DNA of 64,000 nucleotides from contig OY725490.1 in NCBI GenBank assembly GCA_963281255.1, positions 2,976,001 through 3,040,000 on the forward strand. The letters run 5' to 3'. Positions 410-52,216 of this stretch are shown here, in pieces (the stretch's first letter is position 1; the number at the start of each line of letters is the position of its first letter). The translations under genes and the position numbers were made by a program. The notes beneath the pieces are model-generated. The model did not search any database, was not told the DNA's origin, and was given only the letters and a program-made list of their open reading frames with translations. This DNA comes from Aphrocallistes beatrix. Lineage: Eukaryota > Porifera > Hexactinellida > Sceptrulophora > Aphrocallistidae.

Positions 410-600
410 CCGATTTTCACGCGACATTAAGATAACAGCTGAGGAGATAGTAGTGACAGGAGGAGAACATTGGAGTCGTTACTATAATTACACTCATCAG
501 CTGACTAGGAAGTTAATTGCATGTGTAGAAGGTGGGCATGTGATTAATCCATGGCATTTCTGTCTGGATGCAGAACACGACCATGTATTTCTGTTATTAG
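410..600 (+). pseudogene. inverted fragment of an NHL protein gene
   Basis: On the plus strand this reads as part of the C-terminal half of an NHL beta-propeller protein (RYYNYTHQLTRKLI, NPWHFCLDAE). The same segment occurs on the minus strand at about 830-1000 in the neighbouring pseudogene, so the two form inverted arms around a spacer. At about 600 the fragment joins sequence (to about 720) that matches the 3' flank of the NHL copy ending at 3653. It is a rearrangement product with no start region of its own. Confidence 0.75.
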
Positions 601-669
601 AAATACATGGTCATAAACTAATAACTAGAGTAGGAGCAGTAGGAGAGTTAGAATATCTGAAGACAAAAG

Positions 670-1839
670 CTAGGAACGAGAAACTACTATGATTCTATTT
701 TCAGAATCGACAGCTATTCCTCTAGGGTAAGATAATTCTCCTCTTCCTGTTTCTTCGCCACCGAACTTGTGTATCAGCTCTCCTTTGCTTGAAAATATTA
801 GGACGCAATGAGCTGATGAATCAGTTATTAGAATATTCTGTTCTGCATCCAGACAGAAATGCCATGGATTAGTCACATGCCCACCTTCTCCACATGGAAT
901 TAACTTCCTAGTCAACTGATGAGTGTAATTATAGTAACGAATCCAATATTTTCCTTCTGTCAGCACTACTATCTCCTCAGCTGTTTTCTTAATGTCGCTA
1001 AGGAATATCTGAAATAACTGAATTAAATGTAAGATTCAAGTTCAAACATTGAATTCTATTATTTAAATGATCGCATATGTAAATTCTATTTTTATCGTTG
1101 GAAGCAGCAACACCACGAGGATAGTCAAATTCGTTTCTTCTTTCCCGACTGATTTCAAGAATTTCCCTTCAGCAGTGTACTCATTCAGCCAATTACCCCA
1201 TTTCTGTGTAACATACACTGACTAAATGGATAATACATCTTTTCACTGAAATCAAACAAGAACTGCAAAGATCTGGTAAAGACTTGGACATGATGATTCT
1301 CCGATTCACATACATAAACATTGTTAGTTTCAGGATGAATAGTGATTGATTGAGGAAAATAGAACACTCCAGCTAACCTAAATTTCTTTTCACTATGTAC
1401 ACCAGCTACGATTACTGGGTTTTCTATTTCCTTATAGTCCCGAACAGAACTCACCCTAATCGCTCCTAACTCACTCAATCTAGTTTTCAACTCTGCATCC
1501 CACTCCAACACTACTCTCCTCATGCTAGCTCTCTCCTTCTCCCAATCTTCCCTTAGCTTCCTCATACGATCATCCAAATCGGAAACGTGTTGCATCACTA
1601 TATCTTTGTTTTTGTTCACTTTTGATGTAGCTAACTCAACCTCTTCCAATTTTCCAAATCCTCAATCTGCTCAGTAATGGCATCTCCCCTGTATCGCTCC
1701 TCTATCTGATCCAACTCTGATTGCAGTTCGGTCTCTCTCTCCTAGCACCTGATGAACCCTAAAGAACTTATTTCCTCTCTCACTCTCTCTACCTTCGACC
1801 GAAACCTATCCTCGCTTAACACACTATAACACTAGCCAT
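670..1839 (-). pseudogene. coiled-coil NHL protein pseudogene (tandem copy 1)
   Basis: The minus strand encodes the same kind of protein as the copy at 3653-4881: a coiled coil (TSKVNKNKDIVMQHVSDLDD), a linker, then NHL propeller blades (NNVYVCESENHHVQVF, NILITDSSAHCVLIF). The frame is open at about 1649-1185 and again at 966-670, with a broken stretch between. The family start ATG is at 1839-1837 but is followed by a stop within a few codons. The C-terminus ends early relative to the family ending CLQIF/CLQLF. It is non-functional as a full-length protein. Its 5' flank matches that of the second tandem copy almost base for base, so the duplication is recent relative to the decay. Confidence 0.85.
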
Positions 1840-2410
1840 TTCTTCCAGTCAAACTCACTCACTTCTTGCAAATAGCAAGTCGTATATATTCAATCATCAT
1901 TCTATATAGCTTTATATACATGTCTATTCTACATTGAAACATGTTCTATCAGTGTTAGTACCAATTGGAACAAAGGGGGCGAATCATCCTTGAATGTTTT
2001 TGTGGAAAATTAGGAATAATTCTAAATTTGGAAAGAACTTTCTATGAAAATAAAAACCATGTTTGTTGTTTTGTGCATAGTTTTGTCTACAGTTCGTAAC
2101 CACCTACATCAGTTGTCCCATCAGCAACTTATCAGTAACAGAGTTCAAACTAATCATGCAAGATTGGTTAGTGGAAGTGGTCACACGACACAAACCACTT
2201 TCATTCTTATTCATTAAAATTCAAATGGTGGTTGATAGGAATGCTCCTAGAGTATTTGAAGTCTTTGTAATGTTTGAAATTTTGCAAAAGGCTAAACAGC
2301 AAGTATCCGTTGAAAGACCAAATATTTGATTCTGGTAAGTGTCGAGAAAGATAGAGAATTAATAGCCTCAACTCCACAGCTCAATCAATCCATATAACTG
2401 AATATGAGTC
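1840..2410 (-). repeat. 5' flank of NHL cassette, tandem copy 1
   Basis: This stretch is nearly identical to about 4882-5460, 3045 bp downstream. Both lie upstream of a minus-strand NHL gene copy. Part of it (about 1740-2110) recurs inverted at 31440-31785 with no gene attached. It presumably carries the original promoter, but I can point to no specific element. Confidence 0.75.
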
Positions 2411-3652: not shown

Positions 3653-4881
3653 TTAGAATATCTGAAGGCAGAAGTTAGGATTGAGAGAAGCTACTATGAT
3701 TCTATTTTCAGAATCGACAGCTATTCCTGCAGGATTAGAGAATTCTCCTCTTCCTGTTCCTTCTCTTCCGAACTTGTGTTTCAGCTCTCCTTTGCTTGAA
3801 AATATTTGGACGCAATGAGCTGACCAATCAGTTATTAGAATTTTCTGTTCAGCATCCAGACAGAAACGCCATGGATCAGTCACGAACCCACCTTCTCCAC
3901 GTGGAATTATCTCCCTAATCAGCTGGTGAGTGTAATTATAGTAACGAAGGCAATGTTTTCCCTCTGCCAGCACTACTATCTCCTCAGCTGTTATCTTGAT
4001 GTCGCGAGGGTGAGGAATATCTGAAATAACTGAATTGAATGTAAGATTCAAGTTCAAACATTGAATTCTACTATTGTCCCAGTCACATACGTAAATTCTA
4101 TTTTTAACGTTGGAAGCTGCAACACCAGTAGGTTTGATAAATTCGAGTTTGTTCTTTCCTTCTTTCCCGACTGACTTCAAGAATTTTCCTTCAGCAGTGT
4201 ACTTATTCAGACAATGACTCATAAACTGTGTAACATACACTGAGTTGTTACTGATGCACATACCATATGGAAGATTCATCTTTTCACTGAAATCAAATAA
4301 GAACTGCAAAGATTTGGTAAAGACTTGGACCCGATTATTCACAGCATCACATACATAAACGTTGTTTGTTTCCGGATGAATAGCGATTGAGCGAGGGTTA
4401 CAGAACACTCCAGCAAACTTAGATATACTATAACTGTGTTTACCAACTACAATGACTGGATTTTCTAATTCATTATAGTCCCGAAATGCACTCACTCTAA
4501 TCTCTCCTAACTCACTCAATCTAGCTTCCAATTCTGCATTCCACTCCAACTCTACTCTCCTCATGCTAGCTCTCACCTTTTCCCAATCTTCCCTTAGCTT
4601 CCTCACACGGTCATCCAACTCTGAAACGTGTTGTATTATTATATCTTTGTTTTTGTTCACCTTTGATGTTGATAACTCAACCTCTTCCAATTTTTTCAAG
4701 TCCTCAATCTGTTCAGTAATAGCATTCCCCCTGTATCGCTCCTCTAGCTGATCCAACTCTGATTGCAGTTCGGTCTCTCTCTCCTAGCACCTGATGAACC
4801 CTAAAGAACTTATTTCCTCTCTCACTATCTCTACCTTCGACCGAAACCTATCCTCGCTTAACACACTATAACACTAGCCAT
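3653..4881 (-). pseudogene. coiled-coil NHL protein, N-terminus disrupted (tandem copy 2)
   Basis: A continuous frame of about 367 codons ends with the normal family C-terminus (CLQIF, stop at 3653). It contains a coiled coil (about residues 1-110) and roughly six NHL blades, for example NNVYVCDAVNNRVQVF, NRIYVCDWDNSRIQCL, and ILITDWSAHCVQIF. The family start ATG (4881-4879) is followed by an in-frame stop after about seven codons, and the main frame has no ATG at its N-terminus. The codon at 4756 is TTG. Remnants of the expected N-terminal helix (EIVREEIS, then ETELQSELDQLEE) appear in two other frames. It is therefore either a recent pseudogene or a gene starting elsewhere, for instance from an upstream exon. 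NHL propellers usually bind RNA or protein; no RING or B-box is present here. Confidence 0.75.
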
Positions 4882-9045: not shown

Positions 9046-9190
9046 GAATAATTATATAATAATTATATAATAATTATATAATAATTGTATAATAATTATA
9101 TAATAATTATATAATAATTGTATAATAATTATATAATAATTATATAATAATTATATAATAATTATATAATAATTTTAGAATAATTATGTT
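9046..9190 (+). repeat. ATAATTAT array
   Basis: About 145 bp of ATAATTAT/ATAATTGT units directly after the hairpin terminus. The homologous array at 29846-30412 is about four times longer between the same flanks, so it varies in length. Confidence 0.9.
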
Positions 9191-10599: not shown

Positions 10600-11953
10600 C
10601 CTCAGCTTTCGGAAAAAAGCGCAAATTCACTGGGAAAGAATTGGCTATGTATAATTATCCGTCGGGATAACGCACATGTAGCGGTGCATGGAAAAGTGTA
10701 CGATGTCAGTTCCTACATTGGGCAGCACCCTGAGGGTGCTGACCAGATAGCGCTAGGAGCGGGGCGTGATATTTCGCAGGTGTTTGAGTCCTATCACAGT
10801 GACAAAGCATTCGAAATGCTAGAAAGGTTCTATGTTGGCGATCTCGTATCCAGTGAGTATCCAGTTTATCCTCCACGCGGTGAATTTTATCGCACCTTGA
10901 AACAGAGAGTTGAAAAGTATTTCAAAGAGAATAATATCGACCCTAAGTACGACCCATGAATGTTTGTACGATACGCGTTTTTCCTCAGTTTAGCGGTTTT
11001 ATTCCCGTTCTGTATAATATATATTCATGAAATCATCCCAAAACTCTGCATCTTCATCACTGTTATATGGAGAATTGATTTGGCATTGGTTGCCCTCACA
11101 TTGACTCACGACTCATCGCATTTCTCATTCACACACAAACCTTGGGTGTGGCGAGCGTTTGGATCAGTGCATGATCTATTCTTGGGTGTTTCTTTCTTTT
11201 TTGGGTGCATCAACATATCATTGGACATCACCCTTATACTAATATCGATGGGAAGGACCCTGATACTTATACACAACGTGATCATTCACATGCCTTGCGT
11301 ATTAAACGCAGCCAGTCCTGGATCTCCCCTTACCTATATCAGCACGTATATGGACCCATTATCTACTGTTTTCTTGGCATGAAAACCAGGGTTCAAGAAT
11401 TTATCTTCTTGAAAAACGGTAGCAGCAATACTATGCCTCTAACCATACCAACGTATTCGCAGCTCATACAATTCTTTGTGGGAAAGTTTTTGCACTTCAA
11501 TTACAGGTTCACATTGTTTTACTTACAGTATATATGCCGTTTTGGAAGGTAGTAATGTGCAACCTGATTGGTGAGTTCGTAGTGAGCTACTGGCTGGCTC
11601 TCTTTATTCAAACTTCGCACGTGATCAGTGAGGTAGAGTGGCCACAACCAGATACAGAGAATAAGATGCACCGGGATTGGGCTGAACTGCAGGTTGCTAC
11701 AACCCAGGACTTTGCAACGGATAGCTGGTTCTGGTCTGTGTTCAGTGGTTCTATCAACCATCAAACTATGCACCATCTATTCCCTGGAGTGATACAGTCT
11801 CATTACAGACATATTACGCCTATTCTCAAGCAAACCTGTAAGGAATTCGGTGTCAAGTATCATTACGTGCAGAGCTACTGGGAGGCACTAGGCTGCCACA
11901 TCAATCACCTGAAAAAACTAGGACAAAGAGAGGCAAGTCCTAAGCAGGCCTGA
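10600..11953 (+). pseudogene. cytochrome b5-fused front-end fatty acid desaturase, copy 1 (broken)
   Basis: The protein begins with a cytochrome b5 domain (VAVHGKVYDVSSYIGQHPEGAD, with the haem His in HPEG and the second in ESYHSDKAF). It continues into a membrane desaturase with all three histidine boxes: HDSSH (about 11107), HQHIIGHH (about 11205) and NHQTMHHLFP (about 11756). The third box starts with Q, as in front-end (delta-5/6/8-type) desaturases that use b5 as the electron donor at the ER. Its length suits the usual 430-450 residues. It is not intact. A frame change lies near 10660, a TGA at 10957-10959 separates the b5 and desaturase parts, one T is missing in a T-run near 11195 relative to copy 2, and a 5-bp insertion lies near 11527. 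All coding is in one uninterrupted block without introns. ATG choice is unclear; 10525 is the first in frame with the b5 part. Confidence 0.85.
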
Positions 11954-12396
11954 AGTTGTGCATTTTATAGTGTGGACAACTCATTTTTTATTACAAAAAT
12001 ATTAGAGAACTGTAGGGAACAAGAGTCTACAATTATAGGAAATGTAATCATTTAGTCTCTGTTATTGATTGTATATTTCTTTTAGGCCTTTAGATATATG
12101 TTCTTAGATTCCTATTAGCTTTGTAAAGTGGTCTATTTCTACAATAATATATTATCTGGGTAGCTAGTTTTTTAGTTAGTAGTATCTTACCCCGTAACGG
12201 GGATTCAAGGGAAACCCATATGTAGATTATCATCAGATGGACCATTTTGGTTCCAAGATGTGAAATGTTCATCGGATCAGGAAGTTACTAAACTTACTAT
12301 ACGATTTTCAACGGTTCATCTTGGGTTTGTAAGGGTATATATTCCAAAAATCATATTTGCGAGACTATTTGATAAATATTTTTTTGTCTTTGTTCA
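11954..12396. other. 3' flank of desaturase copy 1, then unassigned
   Basis: 11954-12110 matches 27830-27970 (inverted) behind desaturase copy 2, so the duplicated unit included about 150 bp of 3' flank. Copy 1 has a short extra piece near 12002-12016. Beyond 12110 I see nothing. Confidence 0.6.
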
Positions 12397-12620
12397 CAAG
12401 CGCGCTTGCTTGCTTGCGCTGCGCAGCTGTCGGGCGTCCTGCGGGCGCATAGGTTCGCATTGATTAGTTATATGATAGGCAGCATCTTTAAATATGTCTG
12501 TCTTACTGTTATAATCGATATCGCTCGATAAATCACTAAATTTGTCAATTCTTCAATTTTTTTATACGTAATGATGACGTCATAACACAGTGATGAGTAA
12601 TCATTTCGCTGAGAGTTTCA
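12397..12620 (-). repeat. hairpin-ended repeat, TGACGTCA-type subfamily (inverted)
   Basis: Opens with CAAGCGCGCTTGCTTGCTTG and GCGTCCTGCGGGCGC, the complement of the family terminus, then TTATAATCGATATCGCTCG and AATGATGACGTCATAACA. Companion of 8248-8470 and 34149-34420. Confidence 0.7.
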
Positions 12621-12654
12621 TATGTGAGATATATTAATATACACAAATTTGATT

Positions 12655-13085
12655 TCTCTTTTTATGTACTTTCACAATAGCTCATCTACGTATACATCCA
12701 TACTCTTAACGCATTGATTTCTCCATAACCATCAAGATACAGAGTGATCTCTCTACTTGTCCACCATGGTAAAGTGACCCCAGTTGTATTATTATAGAAC
12801 AGTGGACAACTAGATTGACTTGTTTATACTATTTTCTTCCTATTTTGTCCATTAATTCAGGGGTCAAGGCGAAATATTACGGAACATGGACAATGAGAGA
12901 GAACAGACTGTCCATTGAAAGTTATATCGACTGTATAACTCAATCAATAGTAATAATTTCCCTGTACCTATAATATATGGGGATACTCATTGCAATAATA
13001 ACAATAATGACAATATATGCGGAGCTAACTATTGATGGAGTGGAGGAGCTGAAACATGTTTCCAATTAACAGTGACCTTTTTACC
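12655..13085 (+). repeat. solo 3' flank of an NHL cassette
   Basis: From GTACTTTCACAATAGCTCATC to GCTGAAACATG this matches the 3' flanks of the intact NHL genes (17095-17440 plus, 21660-22085 minus). No NHL coding sequence lies upstream of it here, only a hairpin-ended repeat. It is probably the scar of a lost gene copy. Confidence 0.8.
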
Positions 13086-13189
13086 ACCACTGTTCGTGAT
13101 ACTTTATAACCTTATCTCACGGTTAGTTAGATGGCAGGTTGAGAGGCATTCTATTGAGACTTGAAAGTGATGGTGAATCCCGATATATA

Positions 13190-14030
13190 TTATGAAAATA
13201 CCAACAATTGTTTTTAATTCAGAAAACAATTACTTATTTGTCCTTCTTTTCTACTAGAATTAGTTGACACATCAGACTAATCAAAGGAATAATAGTATAT
13301 TGATAGTATATAATAATTGTTAAGATACTATGATTAAATAACTACTCTTATGGGTAATAGATTCGCAGCAAATTCCTGAAATTAATCAGAAAACTATCTC
13401 GAAAGTCGTTAAATGCACAGTGCGATCGATAACTTTATTACTAGTAAATCCCTGAATTTCGAGCGATTGTGAGAGATGATGGAGATATTTTTTACAATTT
13501 ATCTATTAATTAATGGTAATATTAAAACAGTTTACGTACACAGTTTACGTATAGAAAAAGTTACTAATTAAGAGTTCACCTGGAAACTGTATCAGTAAGA
13601 ATTTGCTTAAGGAACAATGATCTTAGAATATTCATACTTAGTAATCTAACTGTAAATAAAGGCATTGCCTTCTAGAATATAGCCAAAACCTATAAATATG
13701 TACGTACTTGATGAAACTACTGATAATATACGGATAATACCTAAACTGATCTCAGTATGCATGAATCAAAAATCGACAAATCGTACCAATTGAATTCAAA
13801 TAATACTTACTTCGATTACTCTTTAAGAAGACCTTTTTTCAATCATTGAAATGTTAGTTATTCTTTATAATTATAATACTGTATATATTATTTAATAAAT
13901 AAAAGTCCGCACAGAAGGGATGGGAGTGTGCTTGCACAATTCCTGAGTTGGTAACACAACATTACGTATATACGCATTACCAACCCAAGAATGTGTAAGC
14001 ACACCCCTACCCCGTCTGTGGAGGGATTTC
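13190..14030 (+). repeat. NHL cassette 5' flank, left arm of inverted duplication
   Basis: This block is the inverted match of 23590-24420, which lies upstream of the minus-strand NHL gene. Shared landmarks include CGAAAGTCGTTAAATGCACAG, ATCCCTGAATTTCGAGCG and AATTGAATTCAAATAATAC. A more diverged copy lies at 21240-21410 upstream of the NHL fragment. Its repeated position 5' of NHL genes suggests it is part of the amplified unit. Confidence 0.8.
13905..14030. mobile_element. short foldback element (stem-loop MITE), left-arm copy
   Basis: GTCCGCACAGAAGGGATGGGAGTGTGC-type left arm and a complementary GCACACCCCTACCCCGTCTGTGG right arm surround TTGGTAACACAACATTACGTATATACGCATTACCAA. The whole 120 bp can fold on itself. 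The paralogous copy is at 23595-23712. Confidence 0.75.
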
Positions 14031-14786
14031 TTCGCCACTAATTAATGGTTTGATATACTTTTGCATGATAAAACGTGGATTTATATTTTTTTGTTGTGTA
14101 ATCATTACGTCACCATGATGACATTAGCATAATATTTTAGAGACATCTGTACTGAATATTTTATAAATCTTTTATTTTATCTCTTATTATTCGTAAGATA
14201 TGCACTTTTTAAACATAAAAAATGATGATGACGCATCTAAATTTTTGACTAAATAAGCTTTAGTATGAAAATGTCCAATCGAATTGAGAGTAAAATAGGT
14301 TGATCACTATCTGTCTTTAGTTGAATATATTGAATTGCTATGTTGAATAGTCTTATGATTATTAACAAAAGGGTATAATCACTAAATGCTGTGTAATCAT
14401 GCTAACTTTTGCATATTTTGAAAATTGAAGGATTATGTTGAGGATTATCTAATTACTCGTAATTCAGAGTCTCAACTCAAATACTTATTCTTATCTAGAA
14501 AATTATCAACCTTTGCCACTTTGTGTCACTAATCGCCATCATATATAATGGCTGTGACTTGGGACAAGTAGTATCAAGTATCAAATATTGATATTTATTA
14601 ACTTGGGAGTTAGTAATTGAGTTAAGGCTATCAATTATGAGTAATTAGAAAGTGTAGTTTACGAATTTGAAATAAAAAATGGAGTATTCCTCACGGTTTG
14701 AGTACATATTCCTTTATGAATATACCCACTTTAATACTATTTGTATGGAAGTTTCTGTGGTGGTCGAATACTTTTGTCCGGGTACT
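14031..14786. other. unassigned, with a Tc1-type terminal fragment at the right
   Basis: About 14090-14140 contains GTAATCATTACGTCACCATGATGAC, faintly like the TGACGTCA repeats. 14695-14786 (TTAATACTATTTGTATGGAAG ... AATACTTTTGTCCGG) matches 34800-34870 and looks like a Tc1-like transposon end. No gene. Confidence 0.45.
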
Positions 14787-15566
14787 GTATAAGGTGGCCC
14801 ATAAGTTATGTCCCAAGCTTTATTTGGTATAAAATTTCTTATACTCAAACAATATTAGTTATTATTGTCTTTAGAGATTGTAATTCGAATACTTTCAACG
14901 ATTTAAAAATATTTTTCGAGTCTGAGACCTAGAACTGTGTTTTGTACGGTGAGTTTGGTGAATAAAAAATGTGTCCTGGTTCGCAGCGAAAATCGCGAAT
15001 CAGAGGCCACTGCTTTTCGAATTATCTTTCTAGAGTCTTCAAATTATCGGAAAAATAGCTCTCACATTTTCCTCGAACACTCTAAATTTGTAGAAATATA
15101 CGATGTGAAGATCAGTGCATTTTCAGGACAAATTGGATCAGATTTTTTTGTGATGTGAAAAAAAGTGCCATTTTAGGGAATTTTGCAAAATATACCTAAT
15201 TTGAACTGCGAGTGAATAACTTTTTCTTATGTCTGAAAATGAATTCAGTGGATTCGTGAAATATTTCTATGGTGAATGAAAGGTATCTGGTGTTAAATCG
15301 TCATGGAACATCGATTATGTAGACAATTTATACAGAAGCAGCGGGACCTGATTTGCGATTTTCGCTGCGAACCAGGACACATTTTTTATTCACCAAACTC
15401 ACCATACAAAACACAGTTCTAGGTCTCAGACTCGAAAAATCTTTTTAAATCGTTGAAAGTATTCGAATTACAATCTCTAAAGACCATAATAAACTAAGAC
15501 TGTTTGAGTATTAAAAATTTTATACCTAATGAAGCTTGGGACAGAACTTATGGGCCACCCTGTATA
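14787..15566. mobile_element. mariner-type MITE with about 220-bp inverted repeats, copy 1
   Basis: Left end AAGGTGGCCCATAAGTTATG; right end ATGGGCCACCCTGTATA. The arms stay complementary for about 220 bp, through GAGATTGTAATTCGAATAC and TGTGTCCTGGTTCGCAGCG, where the right arm is CGCTGCGAACCAGGACACA. A TACAGGGTGNCCCA-type end next to TA is characteristic of mariner-like elements. No transposase is present. The apparent open frames at 14741 and 14937 are inside the arms and are not genes. A second copy is at 46406-47145. Confidence 0.8.
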
Positions 15567-15825
15567 TATTATGCTGGTAATACATTCCTCCATTCCTAAC
15601 TCTATTCTGCGTGGTTAATGATTTTAGGCAGATCCTGTATTAGTTCAACCATCTTCGACCGCATCCTTGGTTCATTTTTGAGATTTAGATGGCAGGCCTT
15701 ATATACAGAGCGGGAGGGCTATGGTGAAGCGTGTTTATCATAAAAAAATAGGAAGGACGAATCTCCCAATCTAGAGTGTTTGTATATAATCAAGTATAGT
15801 ATTTTATTTACCTAGCGTTTAGACA
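15567..15825 (+). other. dispersed repeat remnant and leader of the next gene
   Basis: 15570-15670 matches the family at 3163-3260 (GCTGGTAATACATTCC, ATCTTCGACCGCATCC). The last 45 bases before the ATG (TCAAGTATAGTATTTTATTTAC, then GCGTTTAGACA) are nearly identical to the leader of the gene at 22123-23352. Confidence 0.6.
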
Positions 15826-17058
15826 ATGGCTAGTGCCAGCGTGTCAGATGACTCATTCCTGACACAGGTAGAAAGAGCACGTGAGGAGATAGGTGTGAAG
15901 TTCCACAGAGCTCACCAGGTGCTGGTGGATAGAGAAGAAGACCTGTTATTAGAACTGCAAAAGTTAGAAGCTAGTTACAAGGGAGAGGGAGTATCCGAAC
16001 AGATACGAGAGATAACTGCTTCCAAAGAACAGCTAATAGCAATAATGAAAGGGAATGAGAATCAGGAAACTTTAAAACAGAGTGTAACACCATTGGATGC
16101 TCGTATGAGGGAGTTAAAAATTGGTCTGGAGACAGTTAAAGATAGACTGGGGAGTGTCGTGTTTGAGTGGGATGGAGAACTGGAGAGAATGCTGAGTGAG
16201 ACAGGAGTGATTCGAGTGAGAGCAGCACTGGACTACAAGAAGAAAGGAGAACCTGTCAAGACAGCTTGTAAGTTCCAGAAAGGAAGAACGATAACAGATG
16301 GTGTGTTCCATTGTCCGACTTCAATCGCCATTTGTCCCATAACAGAATACATTTATATTAGTGATGGTGATGCTAATTGTGTGCAAGTTTTTACTAAATC
16401 CTTTGAATTTCTATTCAAATTTAGTGAGAAGATGAATGAGCCATTTGGTATGTGTATCAGTGAGAACAAACTATTCGTTATACAATTTAAAGGCAATACT
16501 CTGATTGTATACTCTACTGAAGGTAAATTTTTGCAATCAGTTGGGAGGAAAGGTGGCAAACAAATTGAATTTAATTGTCCTTCAAGCATTTCTGCTACAT
16601 CTGTCAAGAGACTCATTTACATTTGTGATACGGAAAATCTTCGAATTCAGTGTTTGAATTTGGATCTGACATTCCATTCATTTATTCCTACTGATGTCCG
16701 ACCTTTGAGAATTCACTGTACTTCTGATGAAATTATAGTTTTGAAAGCGAAAAGTCCTTGTATCAGTTTCTATGATTATTCTCATAAACTTCTGAGAGAG
16801 ATTATTCCTATTGGAGAAAGTACTACGATCAAAGCTCCTGTCAATTTCTGTGTCGATCATCAGAACAATATTCTATTTACTGACATTTTAGTTAATTGCG
16901 TAGTAATATTCTTCAATAATGGAGAACTCATACACAAGTTCGGTCAGAAAGGAGAAGGCAGGGGAGAATTCATAGATCCAATAGCTATAGCACTAGATTC
17001 TGAAGACAGGATTATCGTAGCTTCAAAGAATCCTGAACATTGTTTACAACTCTTATAA
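15826..17058 (+). CDS. coiled-coil NHL beta-propeller protein B
   Basis: Intact 410-residue intronless gene starting at the family ATG (ATGGCTAGTGCCAGC). Residues 10-125 form a long charged coiled coil (REEIGVKFHRAHQVL, LLLELQKLEA). A linker with KKKGEPVKTACKFQ follows, then about six NHL blades, for example EYIYISDGDANCVQVF (about 172), LIYICDTENLRIQCL (about 265), NNILFTDILVNCVVIF (about 347) and EDRIIVASKNPEHCLQLL at the end. This is the TRIM/NHL layout without RING or B-box, so it cannot itself be a RING ligase. NHL propellers bind RNA or protein partners; the actual role is unknown. It is very similar to the gene at 22123-23352, its mirror partner in a large inverted duplication. Confidence 0.9.
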   Translation: MASASVSDDSFLTQVERAREEIGVKFHRAHQVLVDREEDLLLELQKLEASYKGEGVSEQIREITASKEQLIAIMKGNENQETLKQSVTPLDARMRELKIGLETVKDRLGSVVFEWDGELERMLSETGVIRVRAALDYKKKGEPVKTACKFQKGRTITDGVFHCPTSIAICPITEYIYISDGDANCVQVFTKSFEFLFKFSEKMNEPFGMCISENKLFVIQFKGNTLIVYSTEGKFLQSVGRKGGKQIEFNCPSSISATSVKRLIYICDTENLRIQCLNLDLTFHSFIPTDVRPLRIHCTSDEIIVLKAKSPCISFYDYSHKLLREIIPIGESTTIKAPVNFCVDHQNNILFTDILVNCVVIFFNNGELIHKFGQKGEGRGEFIDPIAIALDSEDRIIVASKNPEHCLQLL

Positions 17059-17445
17059 ACTGGATTTTGATTTCTCTTCTTTGTTTATGTTATTTTTATG
17101 TACTTTCACAGTAACTCATCTATGTAGTATACATCCATACTCTTGAGGCATTGATTTCTCCATAGCCATCAAGATACGGAGTGTTCTCTCTCCTTGTCCC
17201 CCTTGGTAAAGTGACCCCAGTTGTATTATTAGGACAGTGGACAACTAGATTGACTTTTTAAAATTATTTCTCCCTATTTTCCCATTAATTCAAGGGTCAA
17301 GATGGACTATTAACTGAATATAGATAATTAGAGAGAAATTAGTGTCGATTGAAATGCTAGTTATTATATTGATTGTATACAAGCAGTTCAATCAATAGTA
17401 ATAAATTCCCTACACCAGGAATATAATGGGATATTAATGAGGTAT
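17059..17445 (+). repeat. 3' flank of NHL gene B
   Basis: Shared with the solo flank at 12655-13085 and inverted at 21720-22110. It contains AAGTGACCCCAGTTGTATTATT and ATCAATAGTAATAAATTCCC. Confidence 0.8.
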
Positions 17446-20782: not shown

Positions 20783-21166
20783 CTATGCTATAAATAGAAT
20801 TGCCCCTAGTAGTCGTCGGCTATCTGCTGTAGAGAGTATGTAATGAGTAGAGAGTATGTGAGATGTATGATCCGATTCTATTTCTGTATTAGTTCCAGTA
20901 TAGTCTCTCCCCTCTTGAACTGTCTCAAGTTCTTCTATCGCGAGATCATATATTTCTTCAAGAATTGGCAACATTAACGGATTATCATCTTCTTCCATTT
21001 GTTCCGGTAGCTCTCTTTTGGAAGCTGTTAACTTTTGTATCCCTTCAGTTACTCCCTCTCCTTTGCACAAAGCTTCAAGCTGCTGCAGTTCTGATAACAG
21101 AGTTGATTCTCTATCCAGCAGCATCTGGTGAGTTCTGCGGAACTTCACACCTATCTTCTCACGCAC
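20783..21166 (-). pseudogene. NHL family N-terminal coiled-coil fragment
   Basis: The N-terminal helix of the family is recognisable (REKIGVKFRRTHQMLLDRE, LQQLEALCKGEGV), then the sequence loses similarity and stops with no NHL blades. The initiating segment MASASxS is also missing. Upstream, at 21240-21410, lies a diverged copy of the NHL 5' flank, so this was once a full cassette in the same orientation as the gene at 22123. Confidence 0.8.
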
Positions 21167-21720
21167 TCTCTCTACCTCATTATTACGGTTGCATCTTATT
21201 TCAGTGTATTGTGACTCAACAAACCAGAATTCATGGAATTTGAAACTCGATATGAATTATTTGATAAATTGTAGAAAATATCTACATCATCTCTCATCAA
21301 TCGCTAGAAATTCAGGGATCTAATGAAGTCAACAGTCGAACTGTGTATTTAATGACTTATCGAGATAGTTTTCTGATTAAATTGAAGAATTTGTCGCGAA
21401 TCACTCGAGTGTATCAAAGTGAAATCGAATCCTTAACGTCGATCCGAGGAGGATTAACTCCTTGCAGATACGTAGAAAGGGGTGTTTAATGACCCCAGTA
21501 AAACACCCCTGTGCACTAGTGCTTGTCCTATTTCATTTTATTTTGTTACATTCTTCAAAATAAAGTTTTGTTGTCAACTACTTTCTCATGTAAAAATGTT
21601 GATTACTTTATGACGAACGCTTTCTTTTTAATCACACAATCGCCCATAGGAGTAGTTACTACGTCAATATATTATTATTAAACATGTTTCAGCTCCTCCA
21701 CCCATCAATATTTAGCTAGC
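21167..21720 (-). repeat. diverged NHL 5' flank, then unassigned
   Basis: 21240-21410 matches 24180-24340 (CGCTAGAAATTCAGGGATCTA, TATCGAGATAGTTTTCTGATTA). 21440-21720 contains no recognisable gene. Confidence 0.65.
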
Positions 21721-24420: not shown

Positions 24421-24556
24421 AGTCATATATTAGTATTTTGAATTAATAACTGACTTTAGGAATACAAAAATATTTTTAATCAGGAAAAAATAGTTATTTT
24501 CGAACTTGACATTTTTGAAATCAGATTATTGGAGTCCCGGGTGAGGTATTAAAATT

Positions 24557-27540: not shown

Positions 27541-27559
27541 TATTTAATATATGCCCGGG

Positions 27560-31430: not shown

Positions 31431-31439
31431 GTTGCTGAT

Positions 31440-31785
31440 TCGACTACTAGGTGGTTACGAATTGTAGACGAAACTATGCACAAAACAACAAATATGGTTC
31501 AATTTCATAGAAAGTTCCTTCCAAATTTAGAATTATTCTTACAAATAATATACCACAGAAACATTCAAGGATGATTTGCCCGCTCAATTTAGTTCCAATT
31601 GGTACTAACACTGATATAACAGTTTCGATGTAGAATAGACAGATATATAAAGCTATATAGAATGATGATTGAATATATACGATTTGCTATTTGGAAGAAG
31701 TGAGTGAGTTTGACTGGAAGAAATTGCTAGTGTTAGTGTGTTACGCGAGGATAGGTTTGAGAGAGGAAATAAGAAGGAAATTCAA
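31440..31785 (+). repeat. orphan NHL cassette 5' flank (third copy, inverted)
   Basis: This matches the complement of 1740-2110 and 4785-5155, the region around the start of the tandem NHL copies. The start codon position here reads TTG instead of ATG, and homology stops at about 31785 soon after AGGATAGGTTT and GAGAGAGGAAATAAG. No NHL coding sequence follows, so it is a leader without a gene. Confidence 0.8.
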
Positions 31786-31878: not shown

Positions 31879-32448
31879 TTAATAGCCACACTGTACCACC
31901 CTAACACTAAGACTTGATTGTCGGATTGATATAAAGTAGAACATAATGGCAGAAGCTAATCCAAGAATGACAGAAGCTACTCCAAGAGCTAAAGCGACCC
32001 AGCTGAGAGCCAGTGCTGAGTTGTATCTTTTGTCGCTGAATTCAGAGTAGGCACACAAAGCTACGCAAAAGGCACATATACCGATGGGAAATGAGCAGCA
32101 CATAGAGAGGCAAGCTAGACCAAGGATGACCTCGAAATAAACTGGTTTGGTAGCGAAATCGCAAATGATTTCATCAGGCGTTTGTTTTGCAGGCAAACTC
32201 ACTCTAGTCGTGACGGGGGCGTTCCAGGTGTAGTCCTGATCCCAGGGAGGGAGAGGAATATTTCTCTGAGTGCGTGAGTCTCCCTGCTGAATGGGAGCCT
32301 GTCTGTCTTGTGGTTGATGAGTGACTGGCAGAGGAGGACACCCTTCCAATAGCTGCTCAGTATCACTAGGAACGAGGTCACTTTCAAGTGGTGGTGCAGT
32401 GGGCTGTACCTCAGGGGTGTCAGAGTATGCAGGTGGAAATTGAGACAT
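31879..32448 (-). CDS. CD225/dispanin-family membrane protein
   Basis: A 189-residue protein starting at ATG 32448-32446. Residues 1-90 are Pro-rich and soluble, with a PPAY motif at 5-8 that could bind WW domains (for example Nedd4-type ligases). Residues 101-135 form a re-entrant or transmembrane segment with SMCCSFPIGICAF, the CD225 signature (double Cys, then P-x-G-I). A short loop with SDKRYNSA follows, then a second membrane helix at about 146-173. Family members (IFITM, PRRT, SynDIG) act at cell-surface or endosomal membranes, often palmitoylated on the double Cys. The function here is not known. The gene is intronless and uninterrupted. Confidence 0.8.
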   Translation of the reverse strand: MSQFPPAYSDTPEVQPTAPPLESDLVPSDTEQLLEGCPPLPVTHQPQDRQAPIQQGDSRTQRNIPLPPWDQDYTWNAPVTTRVSLPAKQTPDEIICDFATKPVYFEVILGLACLSMCCSFPIGICAFCVALCAYSEFSDKRYNSALALSWVALALGVASVILGLASAIMFYFISIRQSSLSVRVVQCGY

Positions 32449-37890: not shown

Positions 37891-39078
37891 TCAGAATTTA
37901 GTGCTATAGGCTATAGCCATTGGATCTATGAATTCTCCCCTGCCTTCTCCTTTCTGACCGAACTTGTGTATGAGTTCTCCGTTATTGGAGAATATTACTA
38001 CGCAATTAACTAAAATGTCAGTAAATAGAATATTGTTCTGATGATCAACGCAGAAATTGGCAGGAACTTCCATTGTAGTACTTTCTCCAATAGGAATAAT
38101 CTTTCTCAGAAGTTGATGAGAATAATCATAGAAACTGATACAAGGACTTTTTGCTTCCAAAACTATAATTTCATCAGAAGTACAGTGAATTCTCAAAGGT
38201 CGGACATCAGTAGGAATAAATGAATGGAATGTCAGATCTGAGTTCAAACATTGAATTCGAAGATTTTCCGTATCACAAATGTAAATGAATCTCTTGACAG
38301 ATGTAGCAGAAACGCTTGAAGGACTATTAAATTCAAGCTGTTTATTACCTTTCCTTCCAACTAATTGCAAAAATTTACCTTCAGTAGAATATACATTCAG
38401 AGTATTGCCTTTAAGTTGTATGACAAATAGTTTGTTCTCACTGATACACATACCAAATGGCCCACTCATCTTCTCACTAAATTTGAATAGAAATTCAAAG
38501 GATTTAGTAAAAACTTGCACAATATTAGCATCAAAATCACTAATGTAAATGTTCTCCGTTTTGGAACTAATAACGATCGAAATCGGACAATGGAACACAC
38601 CGTCTGTTGTTGTACTTCCTTTCTGGAACTTACAAGCTGTCTTGACAGGTTCTCCTTTCTTCTTGTAGTCCAGTGCTGCTCTCACTCGAATCACTCCTGT
38701 CTCACTCAGCATTCTCTCCAGTTCTCCATCCCACTCAAACACGACACTCCCCAGTCTATCTTTAACAGTCTCCAGACCAATTTCTAACTCCCTCATACGG
38801 ACATCCAGTAGTGCTACACTCTGTTTTAAAGTTTCCTGATTCTCATTCCCTTTCATTATTGTCATTAGCTGTTCTTTAGAAGCAGTTATCTCTCGCATCT
38901 GTTCGGATACTCCCTCTCCTCTGTACCTAGCTTCTAGCTGCTGCAGTTCTAATAACAGGTCTGCTTCTCTATCCATCAGCACCTGGTGAGCTCTGCGGAA
39001 CTTCACACCTATCTTCTCGCGTACTCTCTCTACCTGTGTCAGGAATGAGTCAACTCCTGACATGCTGGCACTAGCCAT
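37891..39078 (-). CDS. coiled-coil NHL beta-propeller protein D
   Basis: A 395-residue intronless gene with start ATG 39078-39076. Coiled coil at 10-125 (REKIGVKFRRAHQVLMDRE), then about six NHL blades (ENIYISDFDANIVQVF, FIYICDTENLRIQCL, NNILFTDILVNCVVIF). The C-terminus differs from its paralogues. After FIDPMAIA the frame reads YSTKF and stops, because a duplication of the CTATAGC word (37900-37920) shifts it out of the family ending EDRIIVASxNPEHCLQLF, which remains readable in the adjacent frame. The last blade therefore loses its closing strand, which may weaken propeller closure. Otherwise it is intact and close to genes C and E. Confidence 0.85.
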   Translation of the reverse strand: MASASMSGVDSFLTQVERVREKIGVKFRRAHQVLMDREADLLLELQQLEARYRGEGVSEQMREITASKEQLMTIMKGNENQETLKQSVALLDVRMRELEIGLETVKDRLGSVVFEWDGELERMLSETGVIRVRAALDYKKKGEPVKTACKFQKGSTTTDGVFHCPISIVISSKTENIYISDFDANIVQVFTKSFEFLFKFSEKMSGPFGMCISENKLFVIQLKGNTLNVYSTEGKFLQLVGRKGNKQLEFNSPSSVSATSVKRFIYICDTENLRIQCLNSDLTFHSFIPTDVRPLRIHCTSDEIIVLEAKSPCISFYDYSHQLLRKIIPIGESTTMEVPANFCVDHQNNILFTDILVNCVVIFSNNGELIHKFGQKGEGRGEFIDPMAIAYSTKF

Positions 39079-46044: not shown

Positions 46045-46405
46045 GTAAGTCAGAGATAATATGAATACATGTTAATCACTCCGGTTTAAACGAATTCCAG
46101 ATAATACGATCAAATTTCCCCTTGGTGTTCATTAAAGCCGCAACGATAGGTTGAGAGCGTAGATATGTTTCTGTATCAAAAATCCCTGTATTTTTTAGCT
46201 TTTCAACTACTTCCAAAATCTGATCATAATGCTGTTGTAATGTCATAACTAGGGCATTGTGGCTGCTAATTGGAAGATGCATCATTTCACTAATCTTTAT
46301 CTGTGCAATTAGTCTTGCAAATAAGTCCATACCGCGCTGCATTTCTTTCTCCAATTCCTCCAGGCGCATTGCCACTCTTTCCCCATTAATACTAGCTCTA
46401 TCTAC
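46045..46405. other. unidentified minus-strand open frame next to the oxidase gene
   Basis: A minus-strand frame of about 110 codons (46423-46076) is helical in character (RLEELEKEMQRGMDLFARLI, QHYDQILEVVEKLK) and ends with a stop. It has no ATG at its upstream end, which runs into the MITE at 46406. It could be a fragment of an older transposable element or an exon of a host gene. I do not recognise the family. Confidence 0.4.
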
Positions 46406-47145
46406 AAAATTTCTTAGACTCAAACGATCTTAGTTATTATGGTCCTTAGAGATTGTAATTCGAATATTTTCAATGATTTTAAAAGATTTTTCGATTCTAT
46501 GACTTAGAAATGTGTTTTGTATGGTGAGTTTTGAGGAAAAAAAAATGTGTCCTGGCTCGCAGCGAAAATCGCGAATCAGGGCCCACTGCTTTTGTAAAAA
46601 ATGTCTTCATAATCGATGTCCCATGACGATTTAGCACCAGAGACCTTTCATTCAACATAGAAATATTTCATAAATCCACTGAATTCGTTATCAGAAACGA
46701 GAAAAAGTTATTCAGTCGCAGTTCAAATTAGGTTACATTTTGCAAAATTCCCCAAAATGGCACTTTTTTTCACATCACAAAAAAATCTGATCCAAATGGT
46801 CTTCAAAATGCACTGATCTAAACATCTTATATCTCTACAAATTTAGAGTGTTCGAGGAAAATGTGTGAGCTAATTTTTCCTATAATTTGAAGACTCTGGG
46901 AAGATAACTTGAAAAGCAGTGGGCCCTGATTCACGATTTTCGCTGCGAGCCAGGACACATTTTTTTTTCTCAAAACTCACCATACAAAACACATTTCTAA
47001 GTCATAGTATCGAAAAATCTTTTAAAATCATTGAAAATATTCGAATTACAATCTCTAAGGACCATAATAACTAAGATCGTTTGAGTATAAGAAATTTTAT
47101 ACCTAATGAAGCTTGTAACAGAACTTAATTGACACCCTGTATATA
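46406..47145. mobile_element. mariner-type MITE with long inverted repeats, copy 2
   Basis: Second copy of the element at 14787-15566: GAGATTGTAATTCGAATA and TGTGTCCTGGCTCGCAGCG on the left, their complements on the right. The right end is complete (GACACCCTGTATA). The left end lacks about its outermost 45 bases, which are replaced by the sequence carrying the unidentified frame. Confidence 0.8.
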
Positions 47146-48583: not shown

Positions 48584-49819
48584 TTAAAAGAGTTGTAAAC
48601 AATGTTCAGGATTCTCAGAAGCGACTATAATCCTGTCTTCAGAATCTAGTGCTATAGCAATTGGATCTATGAATTCTCCTCTGCCTTCTCCTTTCTGACC
48701 GAACTTGTGTATGAATTCTCCATTATTGGAGAATATTGCTACGCAATTAGCTGAAATGTCAGTAAATAGAATATTGTTCTGATGATCGACACAGAAACTA
48801 AAAGGCCTCCTGATGGATGTACCTTTTCCACGAGGAATAATCTCTCTCAGAAGTTGATGAGAATAATCATAGAAACTGATACAAGGACTTTTTGCTTTCA
48901 AAACTATAATTTCGTCAGAAGTACAGTGAATTCTTAGAGGTGGGACATCAGTAGGAATAAATGAATGGAATGTCAGATCTGAGTTCAAACATTGAATTCG
49001 ACAATTTCCTGCATCACAAATGTAAATACGTCTTTTAACAAATAGAATAGAAACGCTTGAAGGACCATTATATTCAAGTTGTTTATCACCTTTCCTTCCA
49101 GTTGATTGCAAAAATTTACCTTTAGTAGAGTATACATTCAGAGTATTGCCGGTAAGTTGTGTAGTGAATACTTTGTTCTCACTGATACACATACCAGATG
49201 GGTCACTCATCTTTTCACTAAATTTGAACAGAAATTCAAAGGATTTAGTAAAAACTTGCACACAATCAGCGTCACCATAACTAATGTAAATGTTCCCAGT
49301 TTCAGGATAAATAACAATCGAAGACGGAGAAAGGAACACACTCTCTGTTATCGTTCTTCCTTTCTGGAACTTACAAGCTGTCTTGACAGGTTCTCCTTTC
49401 TTCTTGTAGTCCAGTGCTGCTCTCACTCGAATCACTCCTGTCTCACTCAGCATTCTCTCCAGTTCTCCATCCCACTCAAACACGACACTCCCCAGTCTAT
49501 CCTTAACAGTCTCCAGACCAATTTCTAACTCCTTCATACGGACATCCAGTAGTGCTACACTCTGTTTCAAAGTATCCTTATTCTCATTCCCTTTCATTGT
49601 TGTCATTAGCTGCTCTTTAGAAGCAGTTATCTCTTGCATCTGTTCGGATACTCCATCTCCCCTGTACCTAGCTTCTAGCTGCTGCAGTTCTGATAACAGA
49701 GCTGATTCTCTATTCATCAGCACCTGGTGAGCTTTGCGGAACTTCAGGCCTATCTCCTCACGTACTCTCTCTACCTGTGTCAGGAATGAGTCATCTACTG
49801 ACATGCTGGCACTAGCCAT
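48584..49819 (-). CDS. coiled-coil NHL beta-propeller protein E
   Basis: Intact 411-residue intronless gene, start ATG 49819-49817. The coiled coil (REEIGLKFRKAHQVLMNRE, ELQQLEARYRGDGV) is followed by about six NHL blades (GNIYISYGDADCVQVF, RIYICDAGNCRIQCL, NNILFTDISANCVAIF) and the normal ending HCLQLF. The propeller has diverged more than the coiled coil relative to B, C and D, including a RGKGTSIRRPFSF blade that recalls the tandem pair at 0.7-4.9 kb. This pattern fits selection or recombination focused on the propeller surface. Its upstream leader retains only the GTTTTAGGCA part. Confidence 0.9.
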   Translation of the reverse strand: MASASMSVDDSFLTQVERVREEIGLKFRKAHQVLMNRESALLSELQQLEARYRGDGVSEQMQEITASKEQLMTTMKGNENKDTLKQSVALLDVRMKELEIGLETVKDRLGSVVFEWDGELERMLSETGVIRVRAALDYKKKGEPVKTACKFQKGRTITESVFLSPSSIVIYPETGNIYISYGDADCVQVFTKSFEFLFKFSEKMSDPSGMCISENKVFTTQLTGNTLNVYSTKGKFLQSTGRKGDKQLEYNGPSSVSILFVKRRIYICDAGNCRIQCLNSDLTFHSFIPTDVPPLRIHCTSDEIIVLKAKSPCISFYDYSHQLLREIIPRGKGTSIRRPFSFCVDHQNNILFTDISANCVAIFSNNGEFIHKFGQKGEGRGEFIDPIAIALDSEDRIIVASENPEHCLQLF

Positions 49820-50253
49820 TGCCTAAAACTCTAGTTGCTTAGAAAAACTGCGATGCTCAATTGTATATAATAATCAAACTCGTTTATTGCATGGCCCCAC
49901 TCAACTTGCCAAAATGTACATGTGTACTAAACCTATGCACTAATTTTACTATGCTAACTTTAATGTTGAAAATATATTTTTCTCTTCGATTCTACTGCAA
50001 TCCATTTGAAAACCAGAGTAAATCTCCGAAAATTGTTGAGGTTGTATATCCCATAACCGTAGGTGTCAAGTGATATGACTACGATTGATTTCTAAGATCT
50101 AAGCAAATCTTTCACACCTCTACAAAAACCTTTTCTATACAATATATATGACTACACTATCACAATAGATCGTCATTGTTATTAACTTCAAAGCCACAAC
50201 TTGTGTGATATCTTCAATGTATTATAGTTTGTAGCAATAAAAAAGATTATGTG
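49820..50253. other. unassigned intergenic
   Basis: AT-rich; no gene or repeat recognised. Confidence 0.4.
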
Positions 50254-50435
50254 CATATTTTCACATCTTTATATACATATTTTCACACCATTTGACGAAT
50301 TTTGAAAAATATGCTAGATATTAGCTTTCAACGGTTGACATGGGGTTTTCAGGGGTGGAGATTACGAATATCATATTTTCGAGTAAATATGATAATTCCA
50401 TGCGTCCGCAGGGCGATTTTGCGAACACGCATCAA
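50254..50435 (+). repeat. short hairpin-ended repeat, single core unit
   Basis: AGATTATGTGCATATTTTCAC start, one core unit (GCTTTCAACGGTTGACATGGG) and a reduced terminus whose stem is ATGCGTCCGCAGG/...GCGAACACGCAT. The second stem-loop of other copies is missing. Confidence 0.7.
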
Positions 50436-50977
50436 TTTGGACAAACAAGCAAAAAAATCCTAGCGTTTTAATATCCGCTTAATCGGGACACTTTTTGTAG
50501 GACCGGAATAGCTCTAACACATATAAGCCAGCTTCTAGCCCTTTTTTATGTATTATGCGTATATATTTTTGAAAATATGATATCCGAAATCAAGACCCAC
50601 AAAAACTCGAAATCAACTATCGATAGTTAGTAACTATAAAAAAATTTAAAAATTGTCGACTTTATGAAACAATTGTAAACCATAAGAAGTGAGCAATGCT
50701 CAACTCTTGGTCTTTCCACCGAAGTAGTTAGGTTCTAAAGAATCATGAATTATATCATAAATCAGTTAGCTCATCCTCTTAGACTTAGACGAACTACTAG
50801 GCACTAGTTCGCCTAGGACCTCTGTCTTAGTGTAAGCAGAGTACTACCACTCTAAGTATTTAAGCAAATAATAGAAACTATACATATAAACACCACTAAT
50901 AATAAGTAATATAATATTAAATCTAAAAATACTAATTTTTAACTACAAGTTAGGAAAATATATTACAAATATATCGC
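50436..50977. other. unassigned intergenic
   Basis: 50560-50610 contains a further partial core word (TATTTTTGAAAATATGATATCCGAAATC). Otherwise nothing recognised. Confidence 0.4.
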
Positions 50978-52216
50978 TTAGAACGCCATCAAATTCTGAG
51001 TGCATCCCCTCAATAGTACAAATATTCTACCGTCAGAGACGAGCACCTGAGAACATTTGTATCGAACAGGTGTTACTTCAAAATCCTCGCTAACGGGAGT
51101 GATCGGTATTGCCAATTGATTCTTGATATTTCCTTCAGGCGAGACGATGCAGAGTTGGAGATAGGGTAATCCCTTCCTAACAGGCGTAAATAGATTCTGT
51201 TGAGATTCTTGTTTCAATGGAGCGGACCCGATCCGGGCGAGGAGGAAACACTTTTGTGAAAGGAGATAGAAGCACTCGAGCGGCTCAAAAATATCCTTAC
51301 TCAAATAACATTCACAAAATTTTCCAAACTTCATATCGAATTTTAAGATTCTAAAATCGATATCTCTATAGATTATGAAGACGTAATTATCTAGTGTTTG
51401 TAGGCCTAACACCTTCCTACAGTTTTCCAAGTACCCAGACTCTAAATAGAGGGTGGTGCAGGGTGCAACGTTTTTATTGATATCAACATAGCCGTGTTCA
51501 ATATGATGGTCCGTTACGTCATAGGAGAAGTAGTGGAGATGGTTTTCGGGGGACAGAGATAGCGTAATTACTCTGGGTATTCCTTTCACGTGAAATTTCT
51601 CTGACAGATCTGCAGCATCGAATGCTATGAAGTGAAAGTTAACTGGATTCACGCACGAGTCAGATGCATAGAGCCAAATTATCTGATTACAAGAATCGAG
51701 GATTAACAGCTCTGGAATTGGAGTTTTGGAATGGAGATCATTCAAAGGTCGGACTCTTATAGTCTGCCCATCTTTGCCAAAAATGCTAATTCTCTGGTTC
51801 TCTCTATCCGCTACATACAGTTTGAGCTCAACAGGGTCGTATGAAAGGCTAGTCGCACCGCGGAGTTCGTTTCTACCACTTCCGTTGTCACATTTTTCCC
51901 ATAAATGTGATTTCGTGAGAAAGCCATTCTCACAAGCTAATTCTAACTCACAAACATTCTCTACTGCTTGAGTGAAGTTTGTTCTATGCCATACAATTTC
52001 TCTAGCTAAGTTTGAATTAGATTGATTGGGGGAATTTAGCATATTCATCATTTCTTGCTGCTTTTTATCTAACTCTGCTCGCATTTCTTCGAAATTTGAC
52101 AGTAACTCTTTTTCGGCATCAGATGTATCCCTAGTATTCGTATCGACATTGGATGTATTGGGGTATAGTACTAGATTGGGTTGAGGTGAATTGCCATGAA
52201 CATTTTTCATCGCCAT
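50978..52216 (-). CDS. divergent coiled-coil/NHL-like protein F
   Basis: A 412-residue intronless gene, start ATG 52216-52214, following gene E in the same orientation. An N-terminal low-complexity part (residues 1-35) precedes a helical segment (SDAEKELLSNFEEMRAELDK). An NHL-type blade follows (LRGATSLSYDPVELKLYVAD, NQRISIFGKDG). Later blades are weak but keep the spacing of a propeller. Its length equals that of its neighbours, yet it shares little sequence with them and lacks their flanks, so it is an old paralogue or a different NHL gene. Confidence 0.75.
   Translation of the reverse strand: MAMKNVHGNSPQPNLVLYPNTSNVDTNTRDTSDAEKELLSNFEEMRAELDKKQQEMMNMLNSPNQSNSNLAREIVWHRTNFTQAVENVCELELACENGFLTKSHLWEKCDNGSGRNELRGATSLSYDPVELKLYVADRENQRISIFGKDGQTIRVRPLNDLHSKTPIPELLILDSCNQIIWLYASDSCVNPVNFHFIAFDAADLSEKFHVKGIPRVITLSLSPENHLHYFSYDVTDHHIEHGYVDINKNVAPCTTLYLESGYLENCRKVLGLQTLDNYVFIIYRDIDFRILKFDMKFGKFCECYLSKDIFEPLECFYLLSQKCFLLARIGSAPLKQESQQNLFTPVRKGLPYLQLCIVSPEGNIKNQLAIPITPVSEDFEVTPVRYKCSQVLVSDGRIFVLLRGCTQNLMAF

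Follow-up and report, generated by a model that had tools for sequence, protein, structure and literature searches.

We analysed 64 kb of contig C3 (positions 2976001-3040000; hereafter the window) in the genome assembly of the glass sponge Aphrocallistes beatrix, which comprises 100.5 Mb in 28 contigs. Self-comparison, frame listing and tblastn located nine loci of one gene family in the window, encoding coiled-coil proteins with an NHL propeller. An earlier reading made from the letters alone (the sequence-only reading) had counted at least nine such loci, and every item that it listed was recovered, at coordinates agreeing to tens of bases. Copies B (15826-17058, plus strand, 410 amino acids), C (22123-23352, minus strand, 409 amino acids, the inverted partner of B) and E (48584-49819, minus strand, 411 amino acids) are uninterrupted frames. 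Copy D (37891-39078, minus strand) is an open reading frame of 395 amino acids that ends at an early stop, its last ~21 residues lying in another frame (37907-37845); these four had been described as intact or nearly intact. Copy F (50978-52216, minus strand, 412 amino acids) is divergent, with one NHL match barely above the cut-off. The disrupted tandem pair consists of A1 (651-1839, minus strand), whose pieces were spread across three frames in tblastn, and the full-length A2 (3656-4881, minus strand), which has a single in-frame stop. Self-comparison and tblastn also confirmed an N-terminal fragment (20924-21181, minus strand) and an inverted C-terminal fragment (396-581, plus strand). Two flanks without a gene were recovered by self-comparison: the one at 31420-31758 (plus strand) resembles the 5' end sequence of A1 and A2 (86.5%, E 1e-113), covering roughly -298 to +38 in A2, and that at 12659-13061 (plus strand) resembles the sequence 3' of B and C (80-81%, lowest E 1e-106). 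These E-values exclude chance, and the simplest origin of both flanks would be the deletion of copies that once adjoined them.

To describe the protein, E was modelled by AlphaFold2 with 47 family members. The model (mean predicted local distance difference test score 90.1, predicted template modelling score 0.73) has helices at residues 8-53, 55-75, 81-108 and 118-125, followed by a six-bladed propeller. The helical region (residues 8-125) is encoded at 49445-49798 (minus strand), and its helices are predicted to pair as a coiled coil. The best Foldseek matches of E were the NHL domains of zebrafish LIN41, fly Thin, mammalian TRIM71, TRIM2, TRIM3 and Brat (E 1e-21 to 1e-13). At a Pfam cut-off of E 0.01, NHL was matched by all 47 aligned members, and the RING, B-box and filamin models by none of them, as the sequence-only reading had proposed for RING. 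A weak match to zf-SAP30 in eight of the 47 members was the sole zinc-finger match, and the same scan detected no NOD-like receptor (NLR) module. The frames of the family begin at the coiled coil; a genome-wide search for B-boxes gave 24 matches from 48 candidates. B-boxes together with Smad MH2 domains point to an animal genome, and its compactness and single-exon genes may fit a glass sponge; a Wnt search, run with no control, gave no match. Among the features of TRIM (RBCC: RING, B-box, coiled-coil) proteins, the family has a coiled coil followed by a C-terminal domain, as seen in one model, and neither RING nor B-box.

The family extends far beyond the window. With protein B as the query, 103 rows corresponding to 102 loci were obtained on many chromosomes, and internal stops occurred in only four of the 103 rows. 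A second branch, searched with 130 N-terminal residues, yielded 142 rows; 82 reached E<=1e-20, and none of these overlapped the loci matched by B. The total is at least 184 matching loci (102 + 82), where both searches score best candidates only and the second-branch query covers the coiled-coil end alone; NHL repeats were found in several second-branch clusters. Tandem clusters are present, including five copies spaced exactly 3380 bases on C12. This array of second-branch copies (C12:4251225-4265122) is either a recent amplification or an assembly artefact. We fetched 70 loci (L009-L078) from the best matches to B, a sample biased toward intact copies; 67 of the 70 contain a single frame of at least 330 amino acids, and L052, L053 and L057 have no frame of 330 amino acids. 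Five main groups, termed ANV, SVSV, C14, the window group (WIN) and LYES, contain 47 of the 67 members. Nine further members, plus five proteins of L002-L006, were used in the held-back-group test described below, and 11 belong to no group (L015, L018, L031, L037, L044, L049, L050, L051, L072, L074 and L078), L049 having been included in one flank alignment and being absent from the later groups.

Variation in the propeller is concentrated at equivalent positions of every blade. The blades were placed in register by the proline of strand a (a0) and the end of strand b (b0), the latter being an aspartate in all six LIN41 blades. Substitution counting in the five subfamilies gave a ratio of nonsynonymous to synonymous divergence (dN/dS) of 0.88 in the b-c loops, 0.60 in d-a, 0.44 in a-b and 0.29 in c-d. 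Five positions in each blade, a-2, a-1, a+1, b+1 and b+2 (hereafter the ring), had a nonsynonymous difference (pN) of 0.30-0.43; a0 and b0 had 0.040 and 0.048. The 30 ring codons of E lie in the propeller stretch at 48611-49333 (minus strand, residues 163-403), as placed by the propeller model and the ring register. By blade, they are 163, 164, 166, 182 and 183; 205, 206, 208, 222 and 223; 251, 252, 254, 270 and 271; 292, 293, 295, 309 and 310; 337, 338, 340, 355 and 356; and 384, 385, 387, 402 and 403.

Since the ring was defined after the pattern had been seen, two checks were carried out, one leaving out each group in turn and one using groups that had not entered the definition. In the former, the identical five of 27 blade-relative positions were picked in five of five runs, and the held-out ring dN/dS by counting was 2.77 for ANV, 2.28 for SVSV, 0.83 for C14, 0.94 for the window group and 1.56 for LYES, compared with 0.28-0.59 elsewhere in the propeller. 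An earlier register based on DSSP for blade 6 gives the same five positions, with held-out values of 1.09 and 1.12 for C14 and the window group instead of 0.83 and 0.94. In the latter check, five groups outside the definition (two from the second branch, C9 and C3) gave ring counting dN/dS of 1.49-2.15 and values elsewhere of 0.16-0.78, two of these groups being single pairs and two having high synonymous divergence. The pooled ring value was 1.47 (bootstrap 1.10-1.88) versus 0.37 in the rest of the propeller; by blade, the first five ranged from 1.41 to 2.37 and the sixth had 0.62. Positive selection over the whole propeller was unsupported (whole-propeller counting dN/dS 0.40-0.80).

The ratio was also estimated as omega with a codon model (iqtree) on fixed whole-gene trees, where the fits at omega=1 were made over a grid of eight kappa values. 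The ring omega was higher than that of the rest in six of six groups (the five main groups and a sixth, MATPN), and positive selection on the ring was detected in two of them, ANV (3.78; likelihood ratio 24.5, p<0.001) and SVSV (2.25; likelihood ratio 13.9, p 0.0002). The sequence-only reading had asked for separate estimates for the two domains, with equal and neutral values counting against it. The values obtained were neither, ranging over 0.39-0.89 in the coiled coil, 0.30-0.68 in the rest of the propeller and 0.87-3.78 in the ring.

The ring coincides with a known ligand site. Kumari et al. 2018 (PMC5908797), in the portions used here, named 14 zebrafish LIN41 residues as RNA contacts and described most of them as identical among LIN41 proteins of different species. 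The segments of the zebrafish LIN41 chain fit all 14 residue letters at a single numbering offset, and 14 of the 14 contacts fall on ring positions. Contacts and ring are both confined to exposed parts of one face, so that these are not 14 independent coincidences. The register with the LIN41 chain identifies the ring positions as a putative ligand face, and LIN41 homology together with strand order indicates that the ring would form one face in this family. The TRIM-NHL proteins (LIN41/TRIM71, Brat, TRIM2/3, Mei-P26 and Thin) have the same six-bladed NHL propeller, and the positions variable here are the RNA-contact positions of LIN41. In the sponge family, however, there is no RING, B-box or filamin match, more than 100 copies exist, and the positions of the conserved basic upper-face contacts of LIN41 are hypervariable. 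The earlier proposal of a rapidly diversifying recognition family is thus supported, and it is sharpened by the hypervariable ring, the selection in two groups and the coincidence with the LIN41 site.

The composition of the ring was then compared. All 67 ring strings were distinct, with a mean of 24.0 differences over 30 positions, although some were just one residue apart. The ring was enriched in Tyr (8.4 vs 3.4%), Trp (2.5 vs 0.2%) and Arg (8.9 vs 3.9%) relative to the comparison, and was also rich in Gly and Ser. Such a composition is reminiscent of antibody binding sites. The mean net charge was +1.15 over the 30 positions (range -4 to +6, above zero in 44 of 67 members), while the opposite-side loops averaged -5.22 over 49 positions. 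This difference in charge, together with the position of all LIN41 RNA contacts on variable sites, would also be expected if LIN41/Brat-like RNA-binding repressors had radiated in this lineage to serve separate RNA targets, with no relation to defence. We regard this explanation as possible but unlikely, since 23 of 67 members have no net positive charge in the ring and positive selection as strong as that in ANV and SVSV is unusual for housekeeping regulators.

Several points weigh against reading the family as a recognition repertoire. The ring omega was not significantly above 1 in LYES (1.41, p 0.21) and MATPN (1.43, p 0.34), and was not above 1 at all in the window group (0.94, p 0.85) and C14 (0.87, p 0.64). 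The ring comprises 30 codons, and the program gave a warning in the ANV ring fit, where 32 parameters exceeded the number of sites. Synonymous divergence was raised in the ring (0.349 vs 0.246, pooled); local hypermutation, multi-base changes or exchange may therefore add to its signal. The ring is not uniformly basic like the LIN41 pocket, so that a LIN41-like mode of binding may not be common to the family. In addition, the fold was read from the strand list of one modelled member (E), not from coordinates, and the evidence base is one genome. The values near 0.9 in two groups, the lack of significance in two more and the high overall dN/dS are what relaxed constraint would produce, with redundant copies drifting, surface loops changing fastest and no selection for new binding. 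This explanation is improbable: the omega of 3.78 and 2.25 in two groups exceeds neutrality at p<0.001, the opposite-side loops stay at 0.30-0.58 in six groups, and the proline and the end of strand b remain constant amid the variable sites.

Exchange between paralogues was investigated in the five main groups. The test of the pairwise homoplasy index was significant in C14 and LYES, where 0/1000 permutations gave a value as low as that observed. It was borderline in the window group (43/1000) and gave no sign of exchange in ANV (534/1000) and SVSV (333/1000). In ANV, C14 and the window group, the coiled coil had significantly less synonymous divergence than the propeller (permutation p 0.008, 0.006 and 0.0005, respectively); the difference was not significant in LYES (0.077) and SVSV (0.86). 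In the former three groups, the coiled coil may thus be conserved partly through younger age or homogenisation, beside constraint on the protein. The sequence-only reading had described conserved coiled coils and varying propellers; the pattern itself was observed, but it is not simply one of selection. Selection alone was rejected as the full account of coiled-coil conservation, since three of five groups show reduced divergence at its synonymous sites as well. In the first 40 alignment columns, synonymous divergence was very low (0.04-0.09) in four of five groups and 0.22 in SVSV.

Copies B and C lie in two colinear arms in inverted orientation. The first arm (10788-17438, plus strand) contains a fatty-acid desaturase copy (10788-12114), a spacer (13286-14029) and the B block (15774-17438), with intervening stretches that are not shared; the second (21742-29133, minus strand) contains the C block (21742-23403), the spacer (23586-24413) and a desaturase copy (27822-29133). 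Identities between the arms are 97.1% for the desaturase, 97.2% and 95.5% for the spacer and 93.8% for the gene block, and these two were the sole high-identity copies of the spacer found in a genome search. The second desaturase copy has PF00487 in a 189-amino-acid frame. The first has no listed frame of 150 amino acids and looks disrupted. Local segmental duplication is the simplest account of B and C. The gene block has diverged more than the spacer and the desaturase, also synonymously (dS 0.086 vs 13/600 and 21/1328 mismatches), which argues against a single duplication; either a second event or exchange involving other paralogues is needed in addition. Acceleration by selection between B and C was ruled out (dN/dS 0.41).

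We next consider the flanks, which had been thought to travel with the genes as parts of a mobile cassette. B and C do share -52 to +380, but D and E share merely -8 to about +60, and flank sharing is limited to some pairs. Among 228 pairs in the five subfamilies (47 members), the borders of the shared block varied from 1 to 1007 nt on the 5' side and from -9 to 1181 nt on the 3' side, the 3' distance of D being measured from its early stop. The median 5' border was 59 in ANV (16-250), 379 in SVSV (116-831), 132 in C14 (94-1007), 8 in the window group (1-52) and 31 in LYES (25-254); the median 3' borders were 83, 59, 161, 55 and 75, respectively. The random borders that the sequence-only reading had named as grounds for abandoning the cassette are thus largely what was found, yet the borders cluster inside two subfamilies, ANV and SVSV, which makes a cassette plausible by eye. 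Colinear homology resumes past the border in 58 of 228 pairs, although some of the short blocks may be dispersed repeats. Of 456 borders, 35 are shaped like an insertion into one copy; for the other 421, the fetched flanks (1 to 1.5 kb) offer no insertion-type explanation. The pair D/E, like L012, has next to no shared sequence outside the coding part.

The pair L069/L070 illustrates how such borders can arise. Its shared block is 97.5% alike and ends at insertion edges, with homology continuing past both. One border is an insertion of ~896 bases with a TA duplication and inverted repeats beginning CAGTGAAGATTGG (about C3:1442563-1443458), which we take to be Tc1/mariner-like, and the other is a 1.46-kb insertion. 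Differences amount to 39 of 1820 sites between the insertions versus 71 of 1049 in the outer parts, which suggests that the two copies later exchanged the block or that it is under stronger constraint. No target-site duplications or terminal repeats at the ends of the gene unit itself were recognised by eye in the aligned borders, where no systematic scan was made. A splice acceptor or trans-splicing behind a constant 5' border was also considered: TTTAG(A/G)CA precedes the ATG in B-E, but other subfamilies differ there, and the idea was abandoned.

That the copies are retrogenes derived from mRNA is very unlikely. The genes are single-exon, scattered over many chromosomes and have short 5' and 3' ends in common in several groups; however, the shared 5' flanks extend upstream of TATA-like boxes, to ~1 kb in a few SVSV pairs, and no poly(A) tail was noticed in those aligned 3' ends that were read. 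The genes are indeed intronless, as the sequence-only reading had stressed, but this is nothing special here, as two full-length Smad MH2 matches (of five MH2 rows) likewise occupy one uninterrupted frame each (467 and 590 amino acids). Least probable of all is a cassette of promoter, gene and 3' end transposing as a unit with fixed borders. In its favour, 5' flanks with a TATA-like box are shared even between chromosomes, the 5' borders of many ANV pairs gather near -132 and those of SVSV near -375, and copies occur in both orientations. The 421 borders without an insertion explanation, with the almost unshared flanks of the D/E pair and of L012, are compatible with more than one mode of copying. 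Against the cassette, the borders vary widely, homology goes on beyond them or a one-sided insertion shapes them as counted above, those of L069/L070 are insertion edges, one of them Tc1-like, and B and C sit within larger inverted pieces that also carry the desaturase and whose spacer has just two high-identity copies in the genome.

Other features of the window were recorded. A 189-amino-acid frame at 31879-32448 has a weak match to CD225 (interferon-induced transmembrane protein) below the family cut-off. Two adjoining DEAH-type helicase genes at 54117-56573 and 58911-61118 are single-frame (818 and 735 amino acids) and share 85% DNA identity over 1.6 kb. Fold-back elements at 14793-15568 and 46403-47145, one of them just 5' of B, have inverted arms of ~190-224 bases that are 88% alike. 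The 11-base minisatellite AATAATTATAT is present in ~52 copies at 29845-30413 and ~13 copies at 9047-9187 and matches itself in both orientations.

Comparable systems were sought in the literature. The fish TRIM-B30.2 families finTRIM, btr and trim35/hltr are described, in the portions of PMC3137616 used here, as lineage-specific expansions in which the ligand loops of the C-terminal domain are hypervariable and under positive selection; they are RBCC proteins, and so have RING and B-box, with six variable loops on a B30.2 sandwich, whereas the sponge family varies blade by blade on an NHL propeller. Podospora HET-D/HET-E WD40 sensors have a beta-propeller with hypervariable sites per repeat, diversifying selection and a predicted contact surface, according to the sections of PMC12222747 relied on; they are fungal NLRs whose WD40 repeats are kept alike by concerted evolution, in contrast to the sponge proteins, whose six blades differ and in which no NLR module was found. 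These two appear to be the nearest functional analogues among the systems found, and neither, as described in those parts, uses NHL. In the glass sponge Aphrocallistes vastus, clusters of AIG1-domain genes make up another large family, mostly of one exon each and interspersed with other genes, with AIG1 instead of NHL and an expansion mechanism left open in the part of PMC10282587 drawn upon; NHL has no occurrence in the main text of that paper. No NHL family of this sort was described in the titles or abstracts of the best-ranked literature matches, a search that covered neither most subscription papers nor any preprints.

Here, we propose that these numerous germline-encoded NHL proteins, with a coiled coil and no RING, probably form a recognition repertoire with a blade-modular binding face. 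This proposal brings together the copy number, the architecture, the blade-equivalent hypervariability, the positive selection in two groups and the coincidence with the LIN41 site. As in germline-diversified immune receptor families, an expanded copy number is accompanied by selection on the putative binding face, significant in two of six groups. The coiled coil would dimerise, the variable face would bind diverse RNA or protein ligands, and the constant parts may relay a signal or simply neutralise the target. Copies would arise through segmental and tandem DNA duplication, with no need for gene transposition; exchange between paralogues would act in some groups, and insertions would erode the flanks. 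Selection for new binding, probably from parasites or self/non-self, would keep the family growing. More tentatively, and short of an even chance in our judgement, the family may constitute a new animal recognition repertoire of more than 100 germline genes, in which the NHL propeller takes the role of an antibody-like scaffold and each blade repeats a paratope of five residues. The binding site would derive from the TRIM-NHL RNA site, the ubiquitin-ligase part being absent, and positive selection together with exchange among paralogues would diversify the family for immunity or for telling self from non-self.

It is commonly supposed that animals lacking antibodies depend on large germline recognition families, for which few scaffolds are known. 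In this sponge, a fold best known for developmental RNA regulation seems to have become a scaffold for variable binding, with its variable sites on the known ligand site, and this coincidence opens the idea to direct testing: ligands are predicted to bind at the ring residues, and the same five positions per blade could be read in other species and populations.

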